36,314 nucleotides of DNA. Source: Firmicutes bacterium ZOR0006. Lineage in GTDB: Bacteria; Bacillota_I; Bacilli_A; Culicoidibacterales; ZOR0006. Below are positions 6,051-33,465 of this stretch, one piece after another (positions within the stretch are counted from its first letter, which is position 1; each line of letters opens with the position of its first letter). The stretch lies in assembly GCA_000798955.1 (NCBI GenBank), contig JTLC01000037.1, forward strand, positions 1 through 36,314. Direction: 5' to 3'. The notes under the pieces were generated by a model that was not told the origin of the DNA, did no database searches, and saw only the letters and a list, made by a program, of their open reading frames with translations. A program made the position numbers and the translations under genes.

Positions 6051-6956
6051 TTAATAATCTTCTTTTTGGTATCCAAAATCATTGAGGTGAATTTGTTTAT
6101 TTCGCCAATCTTTGACAACTTTCACCCAAGTTTGCAAGTGCACCTTCGTTCCCAAAACACGGTTAATATCTTTGCGGGCATCTGTCCCAATGCGTTTCAG
6201 CATTTGGCCATTTTTGCCAATGATAATCCCTTTTTGACTTGGACGTTCGACAATAATTGCAACCATAACTTCAAGACGACCATCTTCATCACGAGTAATG
6301 TCTTCAATTGTCACGGCAACTGAATGCGGAATTTCTTCACGCGTATGCCACAATACTTTTTCACGTACGATTTCCGCCATGATAAAACGTTCCGGATGAT
6401 CCGTCACTTGCCCCTCAGGGTAATACTGTGGGCCTTCTTCTAAATAATTATATAAAACATCGAGTAGCACATCTAAGTTTTCGTGTTTTTTCGCTGAAAT
6501 TGGAATAATTTCGGCAAAGTCCATTTCTGACTTCGCTTGATGGATGAAGTGATATAATTGTTCTTTTGTTAGCAAGTCAATTTTATTGACAACAAGAATC
6601 ACTGGTTTGTGAATGTTTTTCAAATGTTCCATGATGAAACGATCACCTGTACCAATTTCTTCAGAGGCATTTAACATAAATAAGACAACATCAACACCAC
6701 CTAATGATTTTAAGGCTGTATCCGTCATAAATTTTCCAAGTTCATGCTGTGGTTTGTGAATCCCTGGTGTATCGATAAAGACATACTGGGCCGCATTTGT
6801 TGTCACAACACCTTGGATTTTGTTACGTGTTGTTTGTGGCTTGTCACTCATAATTGCTACTTTTTGGCCAACAATCGCGTTTAAAAATGTCGATTTACCA
6901 ACATTTGGACGACCAACGATTGAAATAAATCCCGAATGGAATGCTTGTTTACTCAT
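6051..6956 (-). CDS. era: GTPase Era (301 aa)
   Basis: Era is an essential GTPase that binds the 3' end of 16S rRNA and assists 30S maturation. G1 is GRPNVGKS (15-22), G3 is DTPG (62-65) and G4 is NKID (124-127). G5 is ISAKK. The C-terminal KH domain carries the GxxG loop in GIIIGKNGQMLKRIG. All functional motifs and the usual length are present. GAGGGAAAAAGT precedes the ATG. It is the first gene of the era-recO pair, and a candidate promoter lies about 75 nt upstream. Confidence 0.98.
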   Translation of the reverse strand: MSKQAFHSGFISIVGRPNVGKSTFLNAIVGQKVAIMSDKPQTTRNKIQGVVTTNAAQYVFIDTPGIHKPQHELGKFMTDTALKSLGGVDVVLFMLNASEEIGTGDRFIMEHLKNIHKPVILVVNKIDLLTKEQLYHFIHQAKSEMDFAEIIPISAKKHENLDVLLDVLYNYLEEGPQYYPEGQVTDHPERFIMAEIVREKVLWHTREEIPHSVAVTIEDITRDEDGRLEVMVAIIVERPSQKGIIIGKNGQMLKRIGTDARKDINRVLGTKVHLQTWVKVVKDWRNKQIHLNDFGYQKEDY

Positions 6957-7027
6957 ACTTTTTCCCTCAACTTCTCTACTTTAAATTTGGCAATCAGACT
7001 GTTGCCATCAGGTACTTAGACAGTGTT

Positions 7028-7033
7028 ATTATA
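7028..7033 (-). promoter_or_regulatory. Candidate -10 of the era promoter
   Basis: TATAAT on the minus strand, 71 nt before the era start codon. The -35 region at 17 nt is poor (TTTCTT), so only the -10 is convincing. It lies just after the terminator-like hairpin of the upstream ABC permease gene. Confidence 0.45.
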
Positions 7034-7040
7034 CACCCCT

Positions 7041-7077
7041 TTTGCAAAAAAAGAAACCACAGGCAGATTTCTTTGCG
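7041..7077 (-). terminator. Weak terminator after the BceB-like permease gene
   Basis: AAAGAAA and TTTCTTT arms with a T run on the minus strand follow the permease stop by about 25 nt. The stem is A/T rich, so termination may be inefficient. Confidence 0.45.
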
Positions 7078-7101
7078 CTTTAACACATCACAATTTCGCC
7101 A

Positions 7102-9141
7102 TCATTCACAATATTCACGGATTTGACGGGAACAGATTGCATACGTTGTCAGAGCATACCCACCATAAAAGATTGCAAAGACCGCAGCGGTAAATAAAGC
7201 ACCGGCCAATAAATCAGGCTTACCAAGCTCAATCAAATAACTCTGCACGATTCGAATTCCCACAATCGCATGGATCAAAGCAAGTCCGAGCGGTAAGAGA
7301 AAATGGACACTGACTTGCGTCGCCACAGAACGCTTGAACATCGTTTCTTCAAGACCTAATCGTTGTAACGTTTTATAACGCGGTAAACTATCGACTATTT
7401 CTGTGAGTTGCTGTAATGCTAAAATCGCAACACTAGCAAGCATAAAAATAAAACTTAAGTAAAGGCCAATAAATAAAATCACATTCGTAAATCCCGTACT
7501 TTCTTGAATTAAGCCTAGGCGGGTGATTCCGCTAAAATAACCAGCAGAAAATTGTTCTGCTTGATTTTGAAATTCGTAAAAGGCATGGTCAAGCTCTTTT
7601 AGTCGCGTTTGCTCGTGATTATCTATTACGTTGATATTGACACGTTCTTTCAATTGATAGACATTTTCTTGTTGCAATGCTCGTTCAGGAACAATCAACG
7701 CATATGAGGAGACAGCCATTTGTGTACTGAGTGTCAAGGGCTGTAGCGGTGTTTTCTGTGTGGCATTGATTAATTCAAAGTTTTGGGTCCCCAGTTTGAT
7801 TGTTTGTTGCTGACTGACAAATTGGGCGAAGGTATTTTCAATTGCTGGGATATCACCTAATAACAATACTTGGTTTTCAGCTAATGTGATTGGTTCACGC
7901 CCTGTCATCGCCAAAATTGCATTATAATCACGCTCACTGTAGAGATACGGATCACTAATTTGATATGGTTTTGCCAAATAGGCTTTTTCACTTGCTACTA
8001 TAGCCTGCTCTTTCAATAGTTCAACAACGTTGGTCACTGTACCATATTCACTAAACTGGTAAACTTGATCTCCTGGCTGAAAGACAAATCCTGCTTGGGT
8101 AATCATTTCCTGTAAATCATGATTCGTGGTGCCATCATACGCATAATAACTTGCTGAGGCATCAACTGGTGTTTGGGCGATTAGAGTTCTTTCTAATGCG
8201 GTTTTAAAGCCAAAACTCGTTGCTAAGGCACCAACAGTCAAGAAGAGTAACAAGCAAATGATTGTGGTCGAGATGTAATTCGTTTTGACTTTACTGTAAA
8301 TTTGGCGAAATGTAAACATCCGTACTCCTGATAAATACTGGTGGGGAAATTTTTGGGCGCCAACTGCAAACCAGCTAGCAAAACTCCAAAAAAAAGCAAA
8401 GGTTCCCAAAACTCCGCACCCAATTGGCAACCAAAAATAAGGGTTATTAGGATCAAGGCCAATTTTCATTGCTAGCCAATAAGCAAAAGCAAGGCAACTG
8501 ATTGCTAATAAGCTAATGAGGGTGACAATCATCAGTCGTGGTTGTTTGATGCGTTCATTCTCGCGGTTGGCGCTGAGTAACTCGTGCAATGAATATCTCA
8601 TCATGACAATACTATTAAACAGCAAAACAATAAAGAAAATCAGACCAAAGGCGACAAATGTGACCCCTGCTGCTCGTGGCGACCACAAAAAGCGATAAGC
8701 GGTGAGAGGGACCAAAAACAGTTGGGTTGCTAATGTTGATAGAACTTGGGAGATAATGACACCAAACAATAATCCAACTAACAAAGAACCTAGACCGACT
8801 AGTAAGGTTTCAATTGTCAAAACCAAGGCGACATGCCATTTATTCATGCCTAAACTTCCATAGAGCCCTAGTTCACGTTTACGACGCTTGACCAAAAAGT
8901 TATTCGCATAAATAATCAAAGCCCCGAGTACACAGGAAATTACTAAAGACAAAATTTCCATTAAAAATTGGAGCAATGCCACATACTCGGCTTGCCGCTC
9001 GCTGATTTGCGTGAGAGCCGTTTGATCACTAATAGCATTGAAAGCATAAAACAAGCAAATTCCCAATGTTAATGTCAAAAAGTAGATAGCATAATCACGG
9101 GTACTTTTTCGAACATTGTTCCAAGCCATTTTAACGTACAT
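7102..9141 (-). CDS. BceB-type ABC transporter permease (679 aa)
   Basis: This is the membrane subunit of a peptide-7-exporter-type system that senses and detoxifies cell-wall-active antimicrobial peptides. The start [21 protein letters not shown] and the following segment GICLFYAFNAI are typical of the family. About ten hydrophobic segments are visible. A hydrophilic region of about 200 residues (roughly 315-520) between segments seven and eight corresponds to the extracellular sensing domain, and FtsX-like segments flank it. The ATG at 9141 has GGGGGTGA about 6 nt upstream. GTG at 9150 and ATG at 9129 are alternatives. The gene overlaps the ATPase gene by about 11 nt. The peptide substrate cannot be told from sequence. 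Confidence 0.9.
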   Translation of the reverse strand: MYVKMAWNNVRKSTRDYAIYFLTLTLGICLFYAFNAISDQTALTQISERQAEYVALLQFLMEILSLVISCVLGALIIYANNFLVKRRKRELGLYGSLGMNKWHVALVLTIETLLVGLGSLLVGLLFGVIISQVLSTLATQLFLVPLTAYRFLWSPRAAGVTFVAFGLIFFIVLLFNSIVMMRYSLHELLSANRENERIKQPRLMIVTLISLLAISCLAFAYWLAMKIGLDPNNPYFWLPIGCGVLGTFAFFWSFASWFAVGAQKFPHQYLSGVRMFTFRQIYSKVKTNYISTTIICLLLFLTVGALATSFGFKTALERTLIAQTPVDASASYYAYDGTTNHDLQEMITQAGFVFQPGDQVYQFSEYGTVTNVVELLKEQAIVASEKAYLAKPYQISDPYLYSERDYNAILAMTGREPITLAENQVLLLGDIPAIENTFAQFVSQQQTIKLGTQNFELINATQKTPLQPLTLSTQMAVSSYALIVPERALQQENVYQLKERVNINVIDNHEQTRLKELDHAFYEFQNQAEQFSAGYFSGITRLGLIQESTGFTNVILFIGLYLSFIFMLASVAILALQQLTEIVDSLPRYKTLQRLGLEETMFKRSVATQVSVHFLLPLGLALIHAIVGIRIVQSYLIELGKPDLLAGALFTAAVFAIFYGGYALTTYAICSRQIREYCE

Positions 9142-9895
9142 CCGTCTCACCCCCTAGTAAACGAATTACCTCCATCAAACGATTAAAAAAATCTGTCCGA
9201 CTCAAATTCCCTCGTGTAAGTTCAGTAAAAAACTTGCCATCTTTGAGAAAGACAATCCGTTGAGCATAACTCGCCGTAAAAGGATCGTGTGTCACCATAA
9301 TCAGTGTCGCAGCTAAGTCTGTATGCAACTGACTCAGCAACTCTAACAACTTTCTTGCTGCTTGTGAATCAAGCGCACCTGTAGGTTCATCGGCCAAAAT
9401 CAGAGTCGGCTGCGTAACAACTGCTCGAGCTGCAGCAACACGTTGCTGTTCTCCCCCCGATAGTTCATAAGGGTATTTGTCGAGTAACGGCCCAATGCCC
9501 AACTGTTGACTCACTTCACGTACCCGACTTTGCACAAGTGGTGCCGCAATTTTTTGGATTGTGAGGGCGAGGGCAATATTTTCAAATGCTGTCAGCGTAT
9601 CAAGTAAATTTAAATCTTGAAAAATAAATCCTAACTGTTCACGACGAAATTTTGCTAATGTTTTTGCAGACATATTCGTTACATCTTGATTATTGATGAT
9701 GATTTGACCAGTTGTCACCGCATCAATAGTGGCAAGACAATTGAGCAAGGTGGTTTTCCCACTCCCAGACGGACCCATAATTGCGACGAATTCCCCGGCA
9801 GTTACCTCTAAATCAATTAGATTGAGTGCTTTTGTTAATTGACTTTTATTTCCATAATATTTTTCGACTGCTTGTACTTGTAAAATTGGTTTCAT
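9131..9895 (-). CDS. BceA-type ABC transporter ATP-binding protein (254 aa)
   Basis: This is the ATPase partner of the adjacent permease. Walker A is GPSGSGKT (41-48), the Q-loop lies in [10 protein letters not shown], and the signature is LSGGE (145-149). Walker B is LILADE (165-170) followed by PTGALD, and the switch histidine is H203 in VTHDP. These features match the MacB/LolD/BceA group. ATG at 9895 is preceded by GAAAGGAG at good spacing. An upstream in-frame GTG at 9913 overlaps that site and is unlikely. A BceR-like dyad and a TATACT -10 with a poor -35 precede the gene, suggesting response-regulator-dependent induction. Confidence 0.95.
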
Positions 9896-9975: not shown

Positions 9976-9989
9976 GAACATTTTTGTAA
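9976..9989 (-). promoter_or_regulatory. BceR-like operator upstream of the ABC transporter genes
   Basis: On the minus strand the site reads TTACA-AAAA-TGTTC, close to the TNACA-N4-TGTAA consensus of BceR-type regulators. A TATACT -10 lies about 55 nt downstream (toward the ATPase gene) with no recognisable -35, as expected for an activator-dependent promoter. Assignment is by similarity to the known consensus. Confidence 0.55.
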
Positions 9990-10030
9990 GTTTTAATTAC
10001 GCAAAAGAAAAAAGCGACTTTCGCGCCCTT

Positions 10031-11041
10031 TTAATCGAGTGTCTGATGGCCTCCATGCGGGAAGCAAAGACTGACTGTTGTCCCCACCCCTTGTTGGCTC
10101 ATAATTGTGAGTTGCAGATGTAATTTGTTGGTCAACCGCTGACAAAGATATAACCCAATGCCCGTTGATGGTGCACATTCACGTCCATTGCTTCCCGTAT
10201 AGCCTTTTTTACAGACATGCTGCAATTCGTGTTTGGCAATACCACAGCCCTGATCAATCACTTCAACACGAACGTTGTCTTGCTCTTGCCGCACACAAAT
10301 CGTAATGTTCTGGTCTTGTTCACTATACTGACAAGCATTTTGAATAATTTGTTGTAAAATAAATTTTACCCACTTCGGGTCACTGACCACTGATGTTTGT
10401 GTTTCATTTAGAATGATTTGTAAATTTTTTGCGCGTAAAGCAAAGGCTTGAGTTTGAATAGCTTGGCGAATGATCGGCTCAATAAGAAAATTGCGGACAT
10501 GATAGTCCTGATTCGCTTGTGTACTCTTGACATAATAAAGTGCTTGTTCAACATACTGCTCAACCGCTTGCAGTTGTTGTTTCATCTCCAAGCGATTTGC
10601 TTGCGGAACATGTTTGGTGAGCAAGTTCGCTGCTGCTAGCGGTGTTTTCACCTCATGAACCCAGGTTGCTACATACTCTTGATACGTATTATTTTCTTGC
10701 TCGTGAAGCTTCACTTGCTCATGCATTGAGCGATTGCTTATTTTCAGCCATTCATAACTCATTTTTCCAGCCAAAAAATGTGGTTGTTTCATAACAACTG
10801 GTAATAAATAGGCTCGGTCTAATTTGGCCAACGTTTGTGTCGTTTCGCGATAAAATTTGATTGTTCGCCAATAGTCATAAACAAAATACATAATCAACGG
10901 AAAGAACCAAAGCAAAGCTATGATAAAAGCCCCAATTGGTGGAATCCGCCAAATTGTCAACAATAAAATGATGCCACAATATAATAGGAGCTGACTGACG
11001 ATAAAAGTACTTTTATCCACTAGATATTGTTTCCATGTCAT
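10031..11041 (-). CDS. BceS-type intramembrane-sensing histidine kinase (336 aa)
   Basis: Two transmembrane helices (about 13-30 and 36-55) are joined by only a few residues, so there is no extracellular sensor. This is typical of BceS kinases that take their signal from the transporter. The H box is WVHEVKTPLA with phospho-acceptor H129. The N box contains QQIIQNACQYS (N235), G1 is DQGCGI (263-268) and G2 is GIGLYL (294-299). The ATG overlaps the response-regulator stop as ATGA. A gap of 136 nt separates it from the ABC ATPase gene and holds a weak GCGA/TCGC hairpin with a T run and a BceR-like box. Partner assignment rests on adjacency. Confidence 0.95.
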   Translation of the reverse strand: MTWKQYLVDKSTFIVSQLLLYCGIILLLTIWRIPPIGAFIIALLWFFPLIMYFVYDYWRTIKFYRETTQTLAKLDRAYLLPVVMKQPHFLAGKMSYEWLKISNRSMHEQVKLHEQENNTYQEYVATWVHEVKTPLAAANLLTKHVPQANRLEMKQQLQAVEQYVEQALYYVKSTQANQDYHVRNFLIEPIIRQAIQTQAFALRAKNLQIILNETQTSVVSDPKWVKFILQQIIQNACQYSEQDQNITICVRQEQDNVRVEVIDQGCGIAKHELQHVCKKGYTGSNGRECAPSTGIGLYLCQRLTNKLHLQLTIMSQQGVGTTVSLCFPHGGHQTLD

Positions 11042-28009: not shown

Positions 28010-28591
28010 CTAGATATACTGATAAAACAAACCATCTTTGGTGCAATACCAGACTAACATACCGCGTTGTTTTGGTAAGCGGACTTGTAAATCCCACTCG
28101 GGGTACTGCTTGATGATCTCTGCTTTCTCTCCTGTTAGCAGGGCGACAAACGAGATATAGTGCGTTTTCTCCATTGGATGATCCGAATGAACAAACCATT
28201 GATGCTCAATCGGTTCGACACTTAATTTTTCTTCTGGTGTGGCTTTTTGAGCGACTCTCACTTCGAGTTTGCGACCGCAGCACGAAACTTCTGAGTTACC
28301 CGTACAAAATGTGATATGCCCACAATTATCACAAACAAAAAATTTCGACTTCTTCATATTTCCTCCAATAAAATCATTTTCTGGTAATTCACCAACTAAC
28401 AAGCTACTAATATCAACTTCTAAAAGCTCTGATACTGCCAAAACAAGTGAAATATCCGGATAGCCGATTCCACGTTCCCATTTTGAAATCGTCCGATCAC
28501 TGACGTTTAATTGCTCGGCTAACTGTTTTTGCGTCAGTCCTTTTTGTGTTCGTAGCTCATAAATAAGCTTTCCTGTCTTATTTGGTTGCAT
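28010..28591 (-). CDS. XRE-type HTH regulator fused to a desulfoferrodoxin-like domain (193 aa)
   Basis: Residues 5-65 are a Cro/C1-type HTH with LTQKQLAEQLNVSDRTISKW. Residues 84-110 read FVCDNC...VSCCG, matching the rubredoxin-like N-terminal metal site of desulfoferrodoxin (C87, C90, C104, C105). The rest (130-193) resembles the superoxide reductase domain, with HPMEKTHYISF (H138, H144) and YCTKDGLF (C183). The usual final iron ligand in C-N-x-H-G is not a histidine here. This suggests a metal or redox sensor and not an active superoxide reductase. ATG at 28591 follows GGGAGGTGAG. The longer in-frame reading to 28612 overlaps that site. Such HTH fusions occur in Bacillota. The regulon is unknown. 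Confidence 0.85.
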   Translation of the reverse strand: MQPNKTGKLIYELRTQKGLTQKQLAEQLNVSDRTISKWERGIGYPDISLVLAVSELLEVDISSLLVGELPENDFIGGNMKKSKFFVCDNCGHITFCTGNSEVSCCGRKLEVRVAQKATPEEKLSVEPIEHQWFVHSDHPMEKTHYISFVALLTGEKAEIIKQYPEWDLQVRLPKQRGMLVWYCTKDGLFYQYI

Positions 28592-28925
28592 GTGCCTCAC
28601 CTCCCTTTTCAAGATACCACCATCCTAGTAGCTTGGCAACAAACGCTCCGTTGAGTTGGCACTTTTTTTCTCTATCCTACTTGTTTTTTGTCGCCTGAGT
28701 GCTATACTTACACAAATTCAAATCATGAGCGTGGAGGGTAGTAACAGCTCAAATTAAGTTATAAAAAAATATAAAATAGTATTGACTTTAGTTGCTATTT
28801 TTGTAACGCTCGATTCAAGAGGTGATAAAGTTGAAGTATGATTCAAATTTTCACTGTTTTTAGTGCTCGCCTTCAAGGGCGACGTGCAAATAAAGCGAAA
28901 CAGATGATAAAGGAGTTGATTGAAG
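28592..28925. other. Intergenic region with an orphan plus-strand promoter and the left part of the tnpB element
   Basis: About 330 nt. At 28681-28708 there is a plus-strand promoter. A GGAGGG Shine-Dalgarno-like site follows at 28733-28738 but no gene starts after it. From about 28745 the sequence becomes A/T rich and unlike its surroundings, and a hairpin TCGCC/GGGCGA lies near 28867-28882, as expected for the left end of an IS200/IS605-type element. The exact element boundary cannot be set by eye. Confidence 0.45.
28681..28708 (+). promoter_or_regulatory. Orphan promoter pointing into the tnpB element
   Basis: TTGTTT (28681-28686) and TATACT (28703-28708) with 16-nt spacing. TGC before the -10 makes it an extended element. 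No plausible ORF starts behind the downstream GGAGGG. Confidence 0.55.
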
Positions 28926-30056
28926 ATGATCCTCGCTCAAAAAATTAGACTGTATCCAAATGATGAACAAGCACAAAAATTGTGGCAGTCAGTTGGAACA
29001 GCTCGTTTTGTTTACAATTGGACACTTGCTCGCCAAGAAGAAAATTATCAAAACGGTGGAACGTTCATTTCTGACAATGAGTTACGCAAAGAACTGACAC
29101 AACTGAAGAAAACTGACCTTGTTTGGCTAAGTGAAGTATCAAACAATGTCGCCAAACAAGCGGTCAAAGACGCCTGTTTAGCCTATAAGCGCATGTTTAA
29201 CGGTCTTGCTCAAAAACCACGTTTTAAAAGTCGGAAGCGGTCAAAGCCAAGCTTTTATAACGATAATGAGAAACTCAAAGTCAAATTTCAATCAGTTTTG
29301 ATTGAAAAAGTTGGCTGGATCAAAATTAAAGAACAGATTCCAATTGAAGGTAAATATACAAATCCACGCATTAGTCATGATGGAAAGTATTGGTATCTCT
29401 GTGTTGGTGTTGAGCAGGAGTTTGAACAACCAATATTAAGCAATGAAAGCTTAGGTGTTGATGTTGGCATCAAACACTTAGCTGTCTGTTCAGATGGAAC
29501 AGTTTTTAAAAACATCAATAAAAGTCAAACAGTGCGAAAGCTTGAAAAACGCTTACGCAGACTACAAAAACAAGTTTCTCGTAAATATGAAAATAACAAG
29601 AAAGGAAGCCAATTTGTAAAGACGAAAAATATCCTCAAACTTGAACAACAAATGAAATTGCTACACCGCCGTTTAAAACACATCCGCATGAATCATCTTC
29701 ATCAAGTAACGAATCAGATGGTGAAAACCAAACCATCACAAGTAGTTATGGAGACGTTAAATATTCAAGGGATGATGAAAAATAAACACTTAGCGAAAGC
29801 AATTCAGAAACAAGGATTATACGAACTCAAGCGCCAACTGATGTACAAATGCCAAAAATATGGTATTGCATTTATTGCAGCAGATATGTGGTTTCCATCG
29901 TCAAAAAAATGTTCGCATTGTGGAGCGGTCAAAACACGGCTGTCGCTCTCTGAGCGCACATTTGATTGTGAAGCATGTCACTTTACGATTGACCGCGATT
30001 TGAACGCTGCCATCAATTTGAGTAATTATCAATTTACTTCATCACTGAAACGATGA
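28926..30056 (+). CDS. tnpB: RNA-guided endonuclease TnpB, IS200/IS605 family (376 aa)
   Basis: TnpB is the RuvC-type nuclease of IS605/IS607 elements, ancestor of Cas12, guided by a right-end omega RNA. All catalytic landmarks are visible: D179 in LGVDVGIKHLAV, E276 in VVMETLNI, the zinc ribbon C329/C332/C348/C351 (CSHC, CEAC) and D358 in DRDLNAAINL. The N-terminal IRLYPNDEQAQKLW is typical. The length is normal and the frame is intact, so it may be active. ATG at 28926 is 10 nt from AAAGGAG. A TTG two codons earlier is possible. No tnpA accompanies it, so it cannot move without help. Confidence 0.93.
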   Translation: MILAQKIRLYPNDEQAQKLWQSVGTARFVYNWTLARQEENYQNGGTFISDNELRKELTQLKKTDLVWLSEVSNNVAKQAVKDACLAYKRMFNGLAQKPRFKSRKRSKPSFYNDNEKLKVKFQSVLIEKVGWIKIKEQIPIEGKYTNPRISHDGKYWYLCVGVEQEFEQPILSNESLGVDVGIKHLAVCSDGTVFKNINKSQTVRKLEKRLRRLQKQVSRKYENNKKGSQFVKTKNILKLEQQMKLLHRRLKHIRMNHLHQVTNQMVKTKPSQVVMETLNIQGMMKNKHLAKAIQKQGLYELKRQLMYKCQKYGIAFIAADMWFPSSKKCSHCGAVKTRLSLSERTFDCEACHFTIDRDLNAAINLSNYQFTSSLKR

Positions 30057-30233
30057 AACAAATATGTAGGATTCGTTGTATCCGAATTTACGCCCCTGGA
30101 GTGTTATACCAAACAAAAGTAGTTGTCTTGTCCTTGGAAACAAGCTTCACAAGCCAGCCAAATTGAACACGACGAACGGGGAATTAAACAGTTTGTTGTA
30201 GAGTTTTGAGATATTTATAAACTTTTATAATAA
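30040..30233 (+). ncRNA. Candidate omega RNA / right end of the tnpB element
   Basis: The 3' end of tnpB plus the following noncoding stretch up to the fruA junction is where omega RNAs of this family lie. The segment is structured (for example CTTG...CAAG pairings near 30125-30160) and ends at the presumed element boundary, where guide sequence would begin. The call rests on location only. Confidence 0.4.
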
Positions 30234-30605
30234 ATTGGCAACGGAATGATTCCACCATTGGCGATTGCCCTTTCAGTCACAGTGTTCCCAAAACTATGGA
30301 GCAAACGTGATCGTGAAGCTGGATTCTTAAACTATGTGATGGGATCATCATTCATCACTGAAGGTGCAATTCCATTTGCGGCAGCGAATCCATTACGTGT
30401 GATTCCAGCCTTAGCCGTGGGAGCTGCAACAACAGGAGCGTTATCAATGTTCTGCGGAGCTGCTTCATCAGCACCACAAGGAGGAATCTTCGTCTTCCCA
30501 TTAATCACGAACCTTGGAGGATATGTGATTGCGATTGTGGCCGGTACAGTTGTCGCCGCAGTCATCCTATCAATCTTAATCAAAAAACAAAACGCAAAAG
30601 CATAA
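30234..30605 (+). pseudogene. fruA: fruA fragment, C-terminal end of the fructose PTS EIIC domain, inverted
   Basis: The frame reads MIPPLAIALSVTVFPKLW, then SSFITEGAIPFAAANPLRVIP and GGIFVFPLITNLGGY, ending KKQNAKA. This is the conserved C-terminal third of FruA-type EIIC. It has no ribosome binding site, and an in-frame stop in the adjoining element sequence closes it upstream. It lies on the plus strand, while fruR, fruK and the rest of fruA lie on the minus strand. The terminator at 30608-30642, which presumably ended the fru operon, has moved with it. Non-functional as it stands. Confidence 0.85.
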
Positions 30606-30607
30606 AC

Positions 30608-30642
30608 AAAAAGTCACGAACAATAACGCTCGTGACTTTTTT
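30608..30642. terminator. Bidirectional terminator between the fruA fragment and the 121-aa gene
   Basis: GTCACGA and TCGTGAC form a stem with A and T runs on the two sides. It serves the convergent genes on both strands. Confidence 0.85.
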
Positions 30643-30669
30643 GCTTTCTCAGCTGATAGTCAGCAATTA

Positions 30670-31035
30670 CTAGCGTTTTGCGAAGTTTCGAAGCAAACGC
30701 GTCAACCAGAAAAATGCAAGATAAATAAGCGAGCAAAAGAGCCAGACAAAGAGTGCATTGGGAAGTCCTGCAAAGATTGTGACCGTCACAAGTAAGAAAA
30801 GACTGTAGGTGAAGTACACCACCGTAGGAGACAAATGGTACGTACTCGTGATTCCAGTGATGATGGCAACGATAAATAAGAGGAAGAGTAAACCAAAAAA
30901 TAAAGTGAAAGCTTCTGCTTCAGTTGTAAAACTTTGCGAAAGGTTCAAGAAAAATAAGGGGATGATATTCCCAATCCCGGGAATAAACAATAGAATCCAA
31001 TCTTTTAGTGTCCAATTTTGAAGTGACAGCTTCAT
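30670..31035 (-). CDS. Small four-helix membrane protein of unknown function (121 aa)
   Basis: I do not recognise it. Four hydrophobic segments (about 14-32, 42-62, 70-90 and 94-112) are followed by a basic end LLRNFAKR. No motif is visible. ATG at 31035 overlaps the stop that ends the truncated fruA frame (ATGA), and TAGGGG lies 7 nt upstream inside the fruA sequence. If the fruA segment was rearranged, the breakpoint lies at this start codon, and the gene may have lost its own promoter or start and now use fru operon transcription. The start is therefore less certain than the body. Confidence 0.6.
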   Translation of the reverse strand: MKLSLQNWTLKDWILLFIPGIGNIIPLFFLNLSQSFTTEAEAFTLFFGLLFLLFIVAIITGITSTYHLSPTVVYFTYSLFLLVTVTIFAGLPNALFVWLFCSLIYLAFFWLTRLLRNFAKR

Positions 31036-31652
31036 AATACAGCCCCTAAGACTGGGAATAAGAAGATTGCCTTAATTCCTTCTAATGGTTTTGGTAACCA
31101 CGAGAACCCTTTGCGTAACGCTAGGATAATTCCTCCCGCTAAGAACCCGGCTAATAAACCACCAAGGAAACCAGCGCCACCGACATTTGCCAGTAAACCA
31201 CCGACGAACCCGACAACTAATCCTGGACAATCAGCGATACTCATTCCGATAAATCCGGCTAAGACTGGGACAATCACACCGAAGCTGAGATCACCAATTT
31301 GTTTTAAAGCGGCAGCAAACGTATTATATTCTGGGCTTGCTGGATCAGCTGAGTGAATTCCGAACATGAACGAGAAGGCAATCAAGATTCCCTCAGCGAT
31401 TACAAATGGTAACATGTTGCTGACACCATTCATTAAGTGCTTGTAGAATTTACGGCCGATACTTTCATTGCTTGCATCCGCTTCGGTTGCTTCTTCACCA
31501 CCACTTGCTTGATAAATCGGTGCATCTTGTTTTTGGGCTTTCGCAATTAATTCATCGGCTTTGTAGATTCCATCAGCAACTGGTACCGTAATCATATGTT
31601 TCCCTGCAAAACGAGCAGTTGCGACTTTTTTATCCGCAGCAACGATGTCGGT
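31032..31652 (-). pseudogene. fruA: fruA fragment: end of EIIB and start of EIIC of the fructose PTS permease
   Basis: The open frame begins directly after the fruK stop codon with TDIVAADKKVATARFAGK, which is the middle to end of a fructose EIIB domain. It passes through a linker, then enters EIIC (KHLMNGVSNMLPFVIAEG, GFVGGLLANVGGAGFLGG) and ends at IFLFPVLGAVL. The EIIA domain, the EIIB phosphocysteine part and the EIIC middle are missing. An internal ATG at 31595 opens a 187-residue reading, but I see no convincing site, and the product would lack the parts needed for transport. Confidence 0.85.
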
Positions 31653-32576
31653 TTATTCCTCGATTTTCGTAATAATAATTTCGGCTTGGAGTTTTTCGAC
31701 ATCCGCTTTCGTTGCTAAACCAACTTGGTAAGCCGTTGCACTTCCTGTTGCTGCTCCACTTTGTAATGCTTTCGCATAATCTCCAGTTTGTAAAAATTCG
31801 GCCATAAAGCCAGCAAGCATTGAATCACCAGCGCCAACTGAATTCACTAATTTCCCTTTTGGGATATTTGAACGGTAAACGTCACCCGTTTCCGTAATTA
31901 ACGTTGCCCCTTCACTTCCTTGCGAAATCAAGACATTGCGTGCGCCTTGGGCTTGGAGTTGTTTTCCGTACGCAATCAGTTCTGCTTGGGTTTCAATTGT
32001 GACACCGAAAATTTCCGCTAATTCGATGTGGTTTGGTTTAATGATAAATGGGCGGTACGGTAAACACGCCGTTAAGTACGTTTGTGTCGTATCGAGGACA
32101 AGTTTGACCTCATGTTTTTGACATAATTGCGCTAAGGTCACATACGCTTCTACACCCATTCCCGGTGCCGCTGTTCCCGCTAAGAATAACGTGTCGCCAC
32201 TTTGGAAGTTGGTTTCAAAATAATGAACGAGTTCTTGGAATTTTGCGGCATCAATTGTTGGTCCACTGGCATTGATTTCCGTTTCCACGCTGCCTTTTAA
32301 TTTAACATTGATTCGTGTGATTCCATCAGCGGCAATAAAATGCGGGGTAATCGCTTCATCTACGAGTGCCGCTTCAATGAAGCTGGCAGTAAAGCCACCA
32401 AGGAATCCGGTAGCAGTATTTTCTAATCCTAACCGGCGTAAAATAACTGACATATTGATCCCTTTGCCACCAGGCACAAAGGCTTCATTTTGGACGCGAT
32501 TCAAATCGCCTAATTGTAAGTTTGGTACCGGTAAGACTAAATCAATGGCCGGATTAAATGTGCATGTATAAATCAT
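31653..32576 (-). CDS. fruK: 1-phosphofructokinase FruK (307 aa)
   Basis: A PfkB-family kinase that converts fructose-1-phosphate to fructose-1,6-bisphosphate after PTS uptake of fructose. The N-terminus MIYTCTFNPAIDL is diagnostic for FruK/LacC-type enzymes. GGKG (about 37-40) is PfkB signature 1, and SVGAGDSMLAGF holds the catalytic aspartate. It is complete and of normal length. The ATG overlaps the fruR stop (ATGA). Its partner fruA is broken, so unless a second fructose permease exists elsewhere its substrate supply is doubtful. Confidence 0.94.
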   Translation of the reverse strand: MIYTCTFNPAIDLVLPVPNLQLGDLNRVQNEAFVPGGKGINMSVILRRLGLENTATGFLGGFTASFIEAALVDEAITPHFIAADGITRINVKLKGSVETEINASGPTIDAAKFQELVHYFETNFQSGDTLFLAGTAAPGMGVEAYVTLAQLCQKHEVKLVLDTTQTYLTACLPYRPFIIKPNHIELAEIFGVTIETQAELIAYGKQLQAQGARNVLISQGSEGATLITETGDVYRSNIPKGKLVNSVGAGDSMLAGFMAEFLQTGDYAKALQSGAATGSATAYQVGLATKADVEKLQAEIIITKIEE

Positions 32577-33319
32577 TCGTTAATAACCTCGATTCGTTGA
32601 TAATTTTTAAAGTTTTCAGGACAGGCATCAGTAATAATTGGATAACGCTCCAATTCACAGATTTGCGAAAATGATCGTTGATTAAATTTACTCGCATCAG
32701 CAAGAATCACAACTTCATCACTTTGGTGCATCGCCGTCTGCTTGATCGCTGCTTCCGCTTCGTCTGGTGTTGAACAGCCAAAAGTTTCATCAATCGCATT
32801 GACACCGATAAAGCACGTATCAAATGAATACCCCTGTAACTGTTGGAGTGTTTGGAAACCAATTACCGCTTGGGTTTTTGGTTTAATATTGCCACCAACA
32901 ATAATTGTTTTCACATTATGTTCGAGCAACTTCGGAATATGATGAATTCCGTTAGTCACGACCGTAATGTTTTTCGCTTGTAAATATGGAATCAGTGCCG
33001 CTGTTGCTGAACCGGCATCTAAAAAGATGACACTTTCGGCTTTTAAATAATGCTCCGCAACATACTGGGCAACTCGACCTTTTTCATCAACTGCTTGTTG
33101 CGTTTTAAGCTGGAGACTTGATTCACTCAAGTGCTTGCTTTGGACTTTCGTTACACCACCGTGTAAGCGTTCAAGTTGACCATCAGCTTCGAGTTTCAAC
33201 AAATCGCGTCGCGCTGTCGCTTCGGAACTCGCTGTCGCTGTCGCAACTTCTTGAATTGAAAGATAGTCATTTGTTTCTAATAACGTCAGAATTATGTGAT
33301 GTCTTTGTTTGGCAATCAT
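32573..33319 (-). CDS. fruR: DeoR-family regulator of the fructose operon, FruR-like (248 aa)
   Basis: The N-terminal DeoR HTH has RHHIILTLLETNDYLSIQEVA and SSEATARRDLLKLEADGQLERLHGG. The C-terminal sensor domain (DeoRC) has VIFLDAGSATAALIPYL and VVTNGIHHIP, with DASKFNQRSF near the end, where sugar phosphate binds in this family. AGGGTGAGCGAAA lies before the ATG. It is the first gene of the fru operon and probably represses it through the tandem 18-bp sites upstream. Fructose-1-phosphate is the usual inducer. Confidence 0.92.
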   Translation of the reverse strand: MIAKQRHHIILTLLETNDYLSIQEVATATASSEATARRDLLKLEADGQLERLHGGVTKVQSKHLSESSLQLKTQQAVDEKGRVAQYVAEHYLKAESVIFLDAGSATAALIPYLQAKNITVVTNGIHHIPKLLEHNVKTIIVGGNIKPKTQAVIGFQTLQQLQGYSFDTCFIGVNAIDETFGCSTPDEAEAAIKQTAMHQSDEVVILADASKFNQRSFSQICELERYPIITDACPENFKNYQRIEVINE

Positions 33320-33374: not shown

Positions 33375-33382
33375 GGGTTTTC

Positions 33383-33420
33383 AATCATTTTCAATCAAAA
33401 AAAATCATTTCCAATCAAAA
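33383..33420 (-). promoter_or_regulatory. Tandem 18-bp operator sites, probably for FruR
   Basis: AATCATTTTCAATCAAAA (33383-33400) is repeated with one change at 33403-33420, a period of 20 bp. On the minus strand the core is TTGATTGAAAATGATT. The pair ends 9 bp upstream of the -35. Direct repeats of TGATTGAAAA-like elements are typical DeoR-family operators. Binding by FruR is inferred from position. Confidence 0.6.
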
Positions 33421-33465
33421 ATGTGCAATTTTTTGGCGTTTTTAGGGGGAATCAGCATCAAAACA

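Follow-up and report, generated by a model that had tools for sequence, protein, structure and literature searches.

The window, a 36,314-nucleotide stretch of DNA from Firmicutes bacterium ZOR0006, carries a fru locus in which a DeoR-type regulator gene and a 1-phosphofructokinase gene lie upstream of fruA (Table 1). The order and orientation of fruR and fruK are those of the Firmicutes fruRKA operon (DeoR-type FruR, FruK, and an EIIABC permease FruA), as in the congener G001, whereas fruA in the window is split, partly inverted, and lacks EIIA, the EIIB phospho-site, and 80 EIIC codons. An earlier note on this DNA had described fruA as two opposite-facing pieces next to an intact fruR and fruK, and this description was borne out: both pieces map colinearly on the intact fruA of G001, and the two upstream genes retain their family matches and show no clear decay. 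Remnant 1 directly abuts the stop codon of fruK (31653-31655), remnant 2 is inverted relative to the operon, and a hairpin separates its convergent EIIC end from a small open reading frame, ORF121. The limits of the pieces needed some correction. The plus-strand piece starts at 30245 and not, as first proposed, at 30234, because positions 30234-30244 are the right end of an IS element shared with its other copies; the minus-strand piece proper starts at 31038, and positions 31036-31037 are probably upstream flank of ORF121.

Table 1. Features of the fru locus and its surroundings (window coordinates; L054 is the fru locus of congener G001).
Feature	Coordinates	Strand	Description and basis
Site A, GGAGG	28733..28737	+	Abuts the IS on its left; target motif and orphan Shine-Dalgarno-like site; similar sites flank other copies
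IS200/IS605-type element	28738..30244	+	About 1507 bp, no full tnpA; ends from other copies
tnpB	28920..30056	+	Uninterrupted, probable ATG at 28926; NF040570, 316 bits (cut-off 100)
fruA remnant 2	30245..30605	+	Last 119 codons of EIIC; L054 ~9335-9693; TIGR01427 positions 230-345
Bidirectional terminator-like hairpin	30608..30641		Perfect 12-nt inverted repeat; 15 pairs in terminator scan
ORF121	30670..31035	-	Small hydrophobic, membrane-protein-like, 121 aa; open reading frame; inverted together with the EIIC end
fruA remnant 1	31038..31652	-	205 codons, mid-EIIB to early EIIC; L054 8476-9093; TIGR01427 positions 7-153
fruK	31653..32576	-	1-Phosphofructokinase, intact, own stop; TIGR03828, 322 bits (cut-off 292)
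fruR	32573..33319	-	DeoR-family regulator, intact; Pfam HTH_DeoR and DeoRC; orthologous position in G001 L054

The minus-strand interval 31035-31652 and the plus-strand interval 30234-30605 matched TIGR01427 with E values of 2e-45 and 2.5e-35, respectively, and the former also matched positions 163-357 of the EIIBC model PRK10712. By these matches both pieces are unambiguously fructose EIIC, and each scores below the TIGR01427 cut-off of 157.55 bits (155.5 and 122.4 bits). The intact operon of a single congener (G001, locus L054) served as the reference. In that operon fruR ends at 6876, fruK spans 6873-7796 and encodes a protein to which the window FruK is 75% identical, and fruA follows directly as a frame of 649 aa (7765-9714) with a likely start at 7801; the identity to this FruA was 83% for remnant 1 and ∼80% for remnant 2. 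Position 31653 of the window corresponds to G001 7796 and position 31652 to 8476, so that 679 bp are missing, a loss that takes in EIIA and the EIIB motif ACPTGIAHT. Remnant 1 ends at ∼9093 and window position 30245 corresponds to ∼9335, which places a second gap of ∼240 bp (80 codons) within EIIC. The loss of about 80 EIIC residues and of the 5′ part of the gene had been claimed from the window sequence and is confirmed by these alignments, which also show just one inverted segment (30245-31035/37) plus two deletions, as the earlier note had proposed. The left flank of the IS element was considered as a source of the missing EIIC sequence and had no match to the congener.

A search with the whole G001 FruA found the missing fruA parts nowhere else in the 1.97-Mb assembly. 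The earlier note had also suggested looking for a second fruA; searches with G001 FruA and TIGR01427 recovered only the two pieces and no second fructose EIIC in the assembly, and G001 has two intact fructose permeases. Judged from these sequences, fruA is a two-piece pseudogene and the sole fructose PTS transporter gene found in the assembly. No working permease is expected from the remaining pieces, since EIIA and the EIIB phospho-site motif are lost, in addition to which 80 EIIC codons are gone and the pieces lie on opposite strands. The prediction is that fructose is not taken up by the FruA route, though fruR and fruK are still present. Elsewhere in the same genome (L061, contig C68 of G000, 9979-10879), a further PTS EIIC gene also appears to be broken, with three separate family matches and an internal stop codon.

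The element to the left of remnant 2 encodes a protein that belongs to the TnpB family (NF040570, PF07282, PF12323, and PF01385), in which RuvC and zinc-finger motifs were recognized by reading. No open reading frame for a Y1 transposase TnpA was present in 28738-28920; tnpA is absent from IS1341-like members of IS200/IS605. The right end of the element, defined by the copies C2, C51, C11, C43, and C33, reads ...AATTGGCAA(C/T)GG in all five of these other copies or remnants, and the sequences diverge directly after it; in the window this end falls at 30244, and the next base is the first of the EIIC piece. The left end, defined by C51 and C2, is at 28738 with an uncertainty of two bases. The element was not found in G001. 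The earlier note had placed the break in fruA beside the IS element, and the link holds but can be refined: the right end of the element is itself the left breakpoint, and it lies at a target-like site.

The target motif is drawn from six copies, both ends being visible in three (window, C2, and C51). The left flanks of these three are GTGGAGG, ATGGGGG, and AAAGGGGG for the window, C2, and C51, respectively, which gives a fixed left motif of GGAGG or GGGGG, and the right end is common to all six. The C2 copy sits at ATGGGGG/TAACG (the slash marks the insertion point), and the frame is open again once its flanks are joined, which indicates an exact insertion without target duplication. An ATG occurs at +8 or +9 to the right of C51, C11, C43, and C33 (frames of 1387, 300, 96, and 97 aa), so that four of the five other copies are 8-9 nt upstream of an ORF start codon, at Shine-Dalgarno positions. 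The 1387-aa frame resembles glutamate synthase by eye. The element thus shares with IS1341-like tnpB elements of the IS200/IS605 group its TnpB family, the lack of target duplication, a conserved right end, and a fixed left-flank motif, and differs in that its motif is G-rich (GGRGG), that most copies are at Shine-Dalgarno positions, and that a full tnpA is missing here. From these flanks, the element appears to insert next to GGRGG, mostly in Shine-Dalgarno sequences. A literature search for tnpB elements that target Shine-Dalgarno sequences or have a GGAG motif found nothing relevant; the preference provides a testable target rule for the TnpB of this element. The same kind of site is present in the intact permease gene. 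At the point matching 30244/30245, G001 reads GGCTGGAGG/AATGGTTCC (GGAGG/AATG, hereafter site B), a typical target of the tnpB element within EIIC.

At the other breakpoint lies the ATG start codon of ORF121, which shares bases with the terminal TGA of fruA remnant 1 (ATGA). As the locus now reads, this overlap places ORF121 next in line among the cistrons of the fru operon, where the fru promoter may drive its transcription. ORF121 had no match in Pfam or NCBIfam, is single copy in its own genome, and had no convincing homologue in the congener, 60 relatives, or 395 genomes of the class; the best matches (E ∼5e-4) contained internal stop codons. The HTH gene on the far side of the element (28010-28612) has no ortholog in the congener. 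About two bases of upstream sequence are kept by ORF121, with no Shine-Dalgarno-like site among them. Site A, by comparison, is a Shine-Dalgarno-like site without a gene, and ORF121 is a gene without such a site. When 30245-31037 is reversed, the Shine-Dalgarno site returns to ORF121 and the EIIC end comes into line with the operon, and of all the evidence, this double restoration argues most strongly that the segment was inverted once, between two target sites. The breakpoints are probably two oppositely oriented target sites of the IS. Repeats at the breakpoints that might have driven the inversion or a misjoin were also sought, and none of note was seen.

We favor, with moderate confidence, a history of recombination between inverted IS copies followed by the loss of one copy and by deletions. 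The ancestral minus-strand order would have been fruR-fruK-fruA, convergent with ORF121 through the bidirectional terminator; that the EIIC end and ORF121 were natural neighbors is suggested by their being convergent genes that share a terminator. Upstream of ORF121 there would originally have been its own Shine-Dalgarno sequence GGAGG and the divergent HTH gene. The original place of ORF121 is inferred, since the search turned up no relative that carries it; nor did any genome show ORF121 next to an intact fruA, and the G001 contig stops 27 bp past fruA. Copies of the tnpB element would then have inserted in opposite orientations at site A, upstream of ORF121, and at site B in EIIC, and homologous recombination between them would have flipped the segment comprising ORF121, the terminator, and the EIIC end. 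The product would be a chimeric IS whose left end lies at site A and whose right end lies at site B, and such an element fits the residue of recombination between two inverted copies. No IS sequence is present at 31036, where a second, inverted copy would be expected. We therefore infer that this copy was lost later, and since the 80 EIIC codons are gone as well, one deletion must have removed both, together with the upstream flank of ORF121, in an order of events that we likewise reconstruct from the present arrangement. A separate deletion of 679 bp would have removed EIIA and half of EIIB. The breakpoint at an IS end and the chimeric flanks are as in inversions between inverted IS copies generally, from which the locus differs in that only one copy is left and the second is assumed.

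The empty junction at 31036 would be accounted for directly if a single copy had inserted at site A and the right end of this copy had been cut and joined to the EIIC target, so that the segment was turned around with no second copy involved, either by aberrant strand exchange by TnpA or by faulty repair of a break made by TnpB, with the EIIC gap arising from the same repair or soon after. This route saves one insertion, and the junction of the right end with EIIC is exactly of the target type, but such one-ended exchange is not known to be established for the IS200/IS605-type family, and TnpA would have to act in trans on a copy without an intact tnpA; we consider it doubtful. It is unlikely that the element itself made the inversion in one step, by one-ended exchange or a TnpB cut, and carries a guide that also recognizes intact fruA. 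If it did, the guide expected from the right flank would fit intact fruA (GGAGG followed by AATG(A/G)TTCCACC), and the element would stand in the way of the gene being repaired or regained.

At the other two junctions there are deletions that show no evident homology, as might be expected if ordinary breakage and illegitimate joining had made the inversion and the IS had inserted later at a breakpoint. The EIIC breakpoint, however, lies exactly at GGAGG/AATG, which in the intact gene is a target-type site, and the IS has no EIIC sequence on its left, so that this sequence of events needs a chance coincidence and appears quite unlikely. An assembly error at the fruA junctions is unlikely as well. 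The assembly is a draft of 93 contigs, and short-read assemblies do misjoin at IS copies, so pieces of a fruA that is really intact or otherwise arranged might have been joined wrongly at the IS. Against this, there is no repeat at 31036 or 31652, the assembly from which the missing parts of fruA are absent is rated 100% complete, the nearest other IS copy is only 94% identical to that of the window, and invariant residues have changed in the pieces, as expected of a true pseudogene; the probability we attach to an artefact is very small. The locus is an ordinary case of IS-mediated pseudogenization with unusually readable scars, and it clearly illustrates the reshaping of a genome by tnpB elements.

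The age of the loss was estimated from 83 related FruA proteins, in which 63 columns within the two pieces are invariant. The window has private changes at four of these (G311E, R366C, F581C, and H589Q) and the congener at none; a further change, V309I, is common to both. The corresponding private changes are one in 40 invariant columns for FruK and one in 39 for FruR. Four of 63 amounts to ∼6% of codons; neutral simulation equates this level with ∼30 substitutions or 3% of bases, an estimate from small numbers. Neither piece contains an internal stop, and the simulated chance of this at that level is ∼0.34, which makes the absence of stops compatible with a short to moderate period of relaxed selection. 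The earlier suggestion that the loss may be recent stands only in part: the frames remain open, yet substitutions have already occurred at four residues that are otherwise invariant. The private changes suggest that decay of fruA has begun, and the lack of stops despite them points to a fairly recent loss; for fruR and fruK, the residue counts suggest no clear decay. Upstream of fruR, at 33379-33421, AATCATTT(T/C)CAATCAAAAA motifs are repeated and are possibly operators of the DeoR-type FruR.
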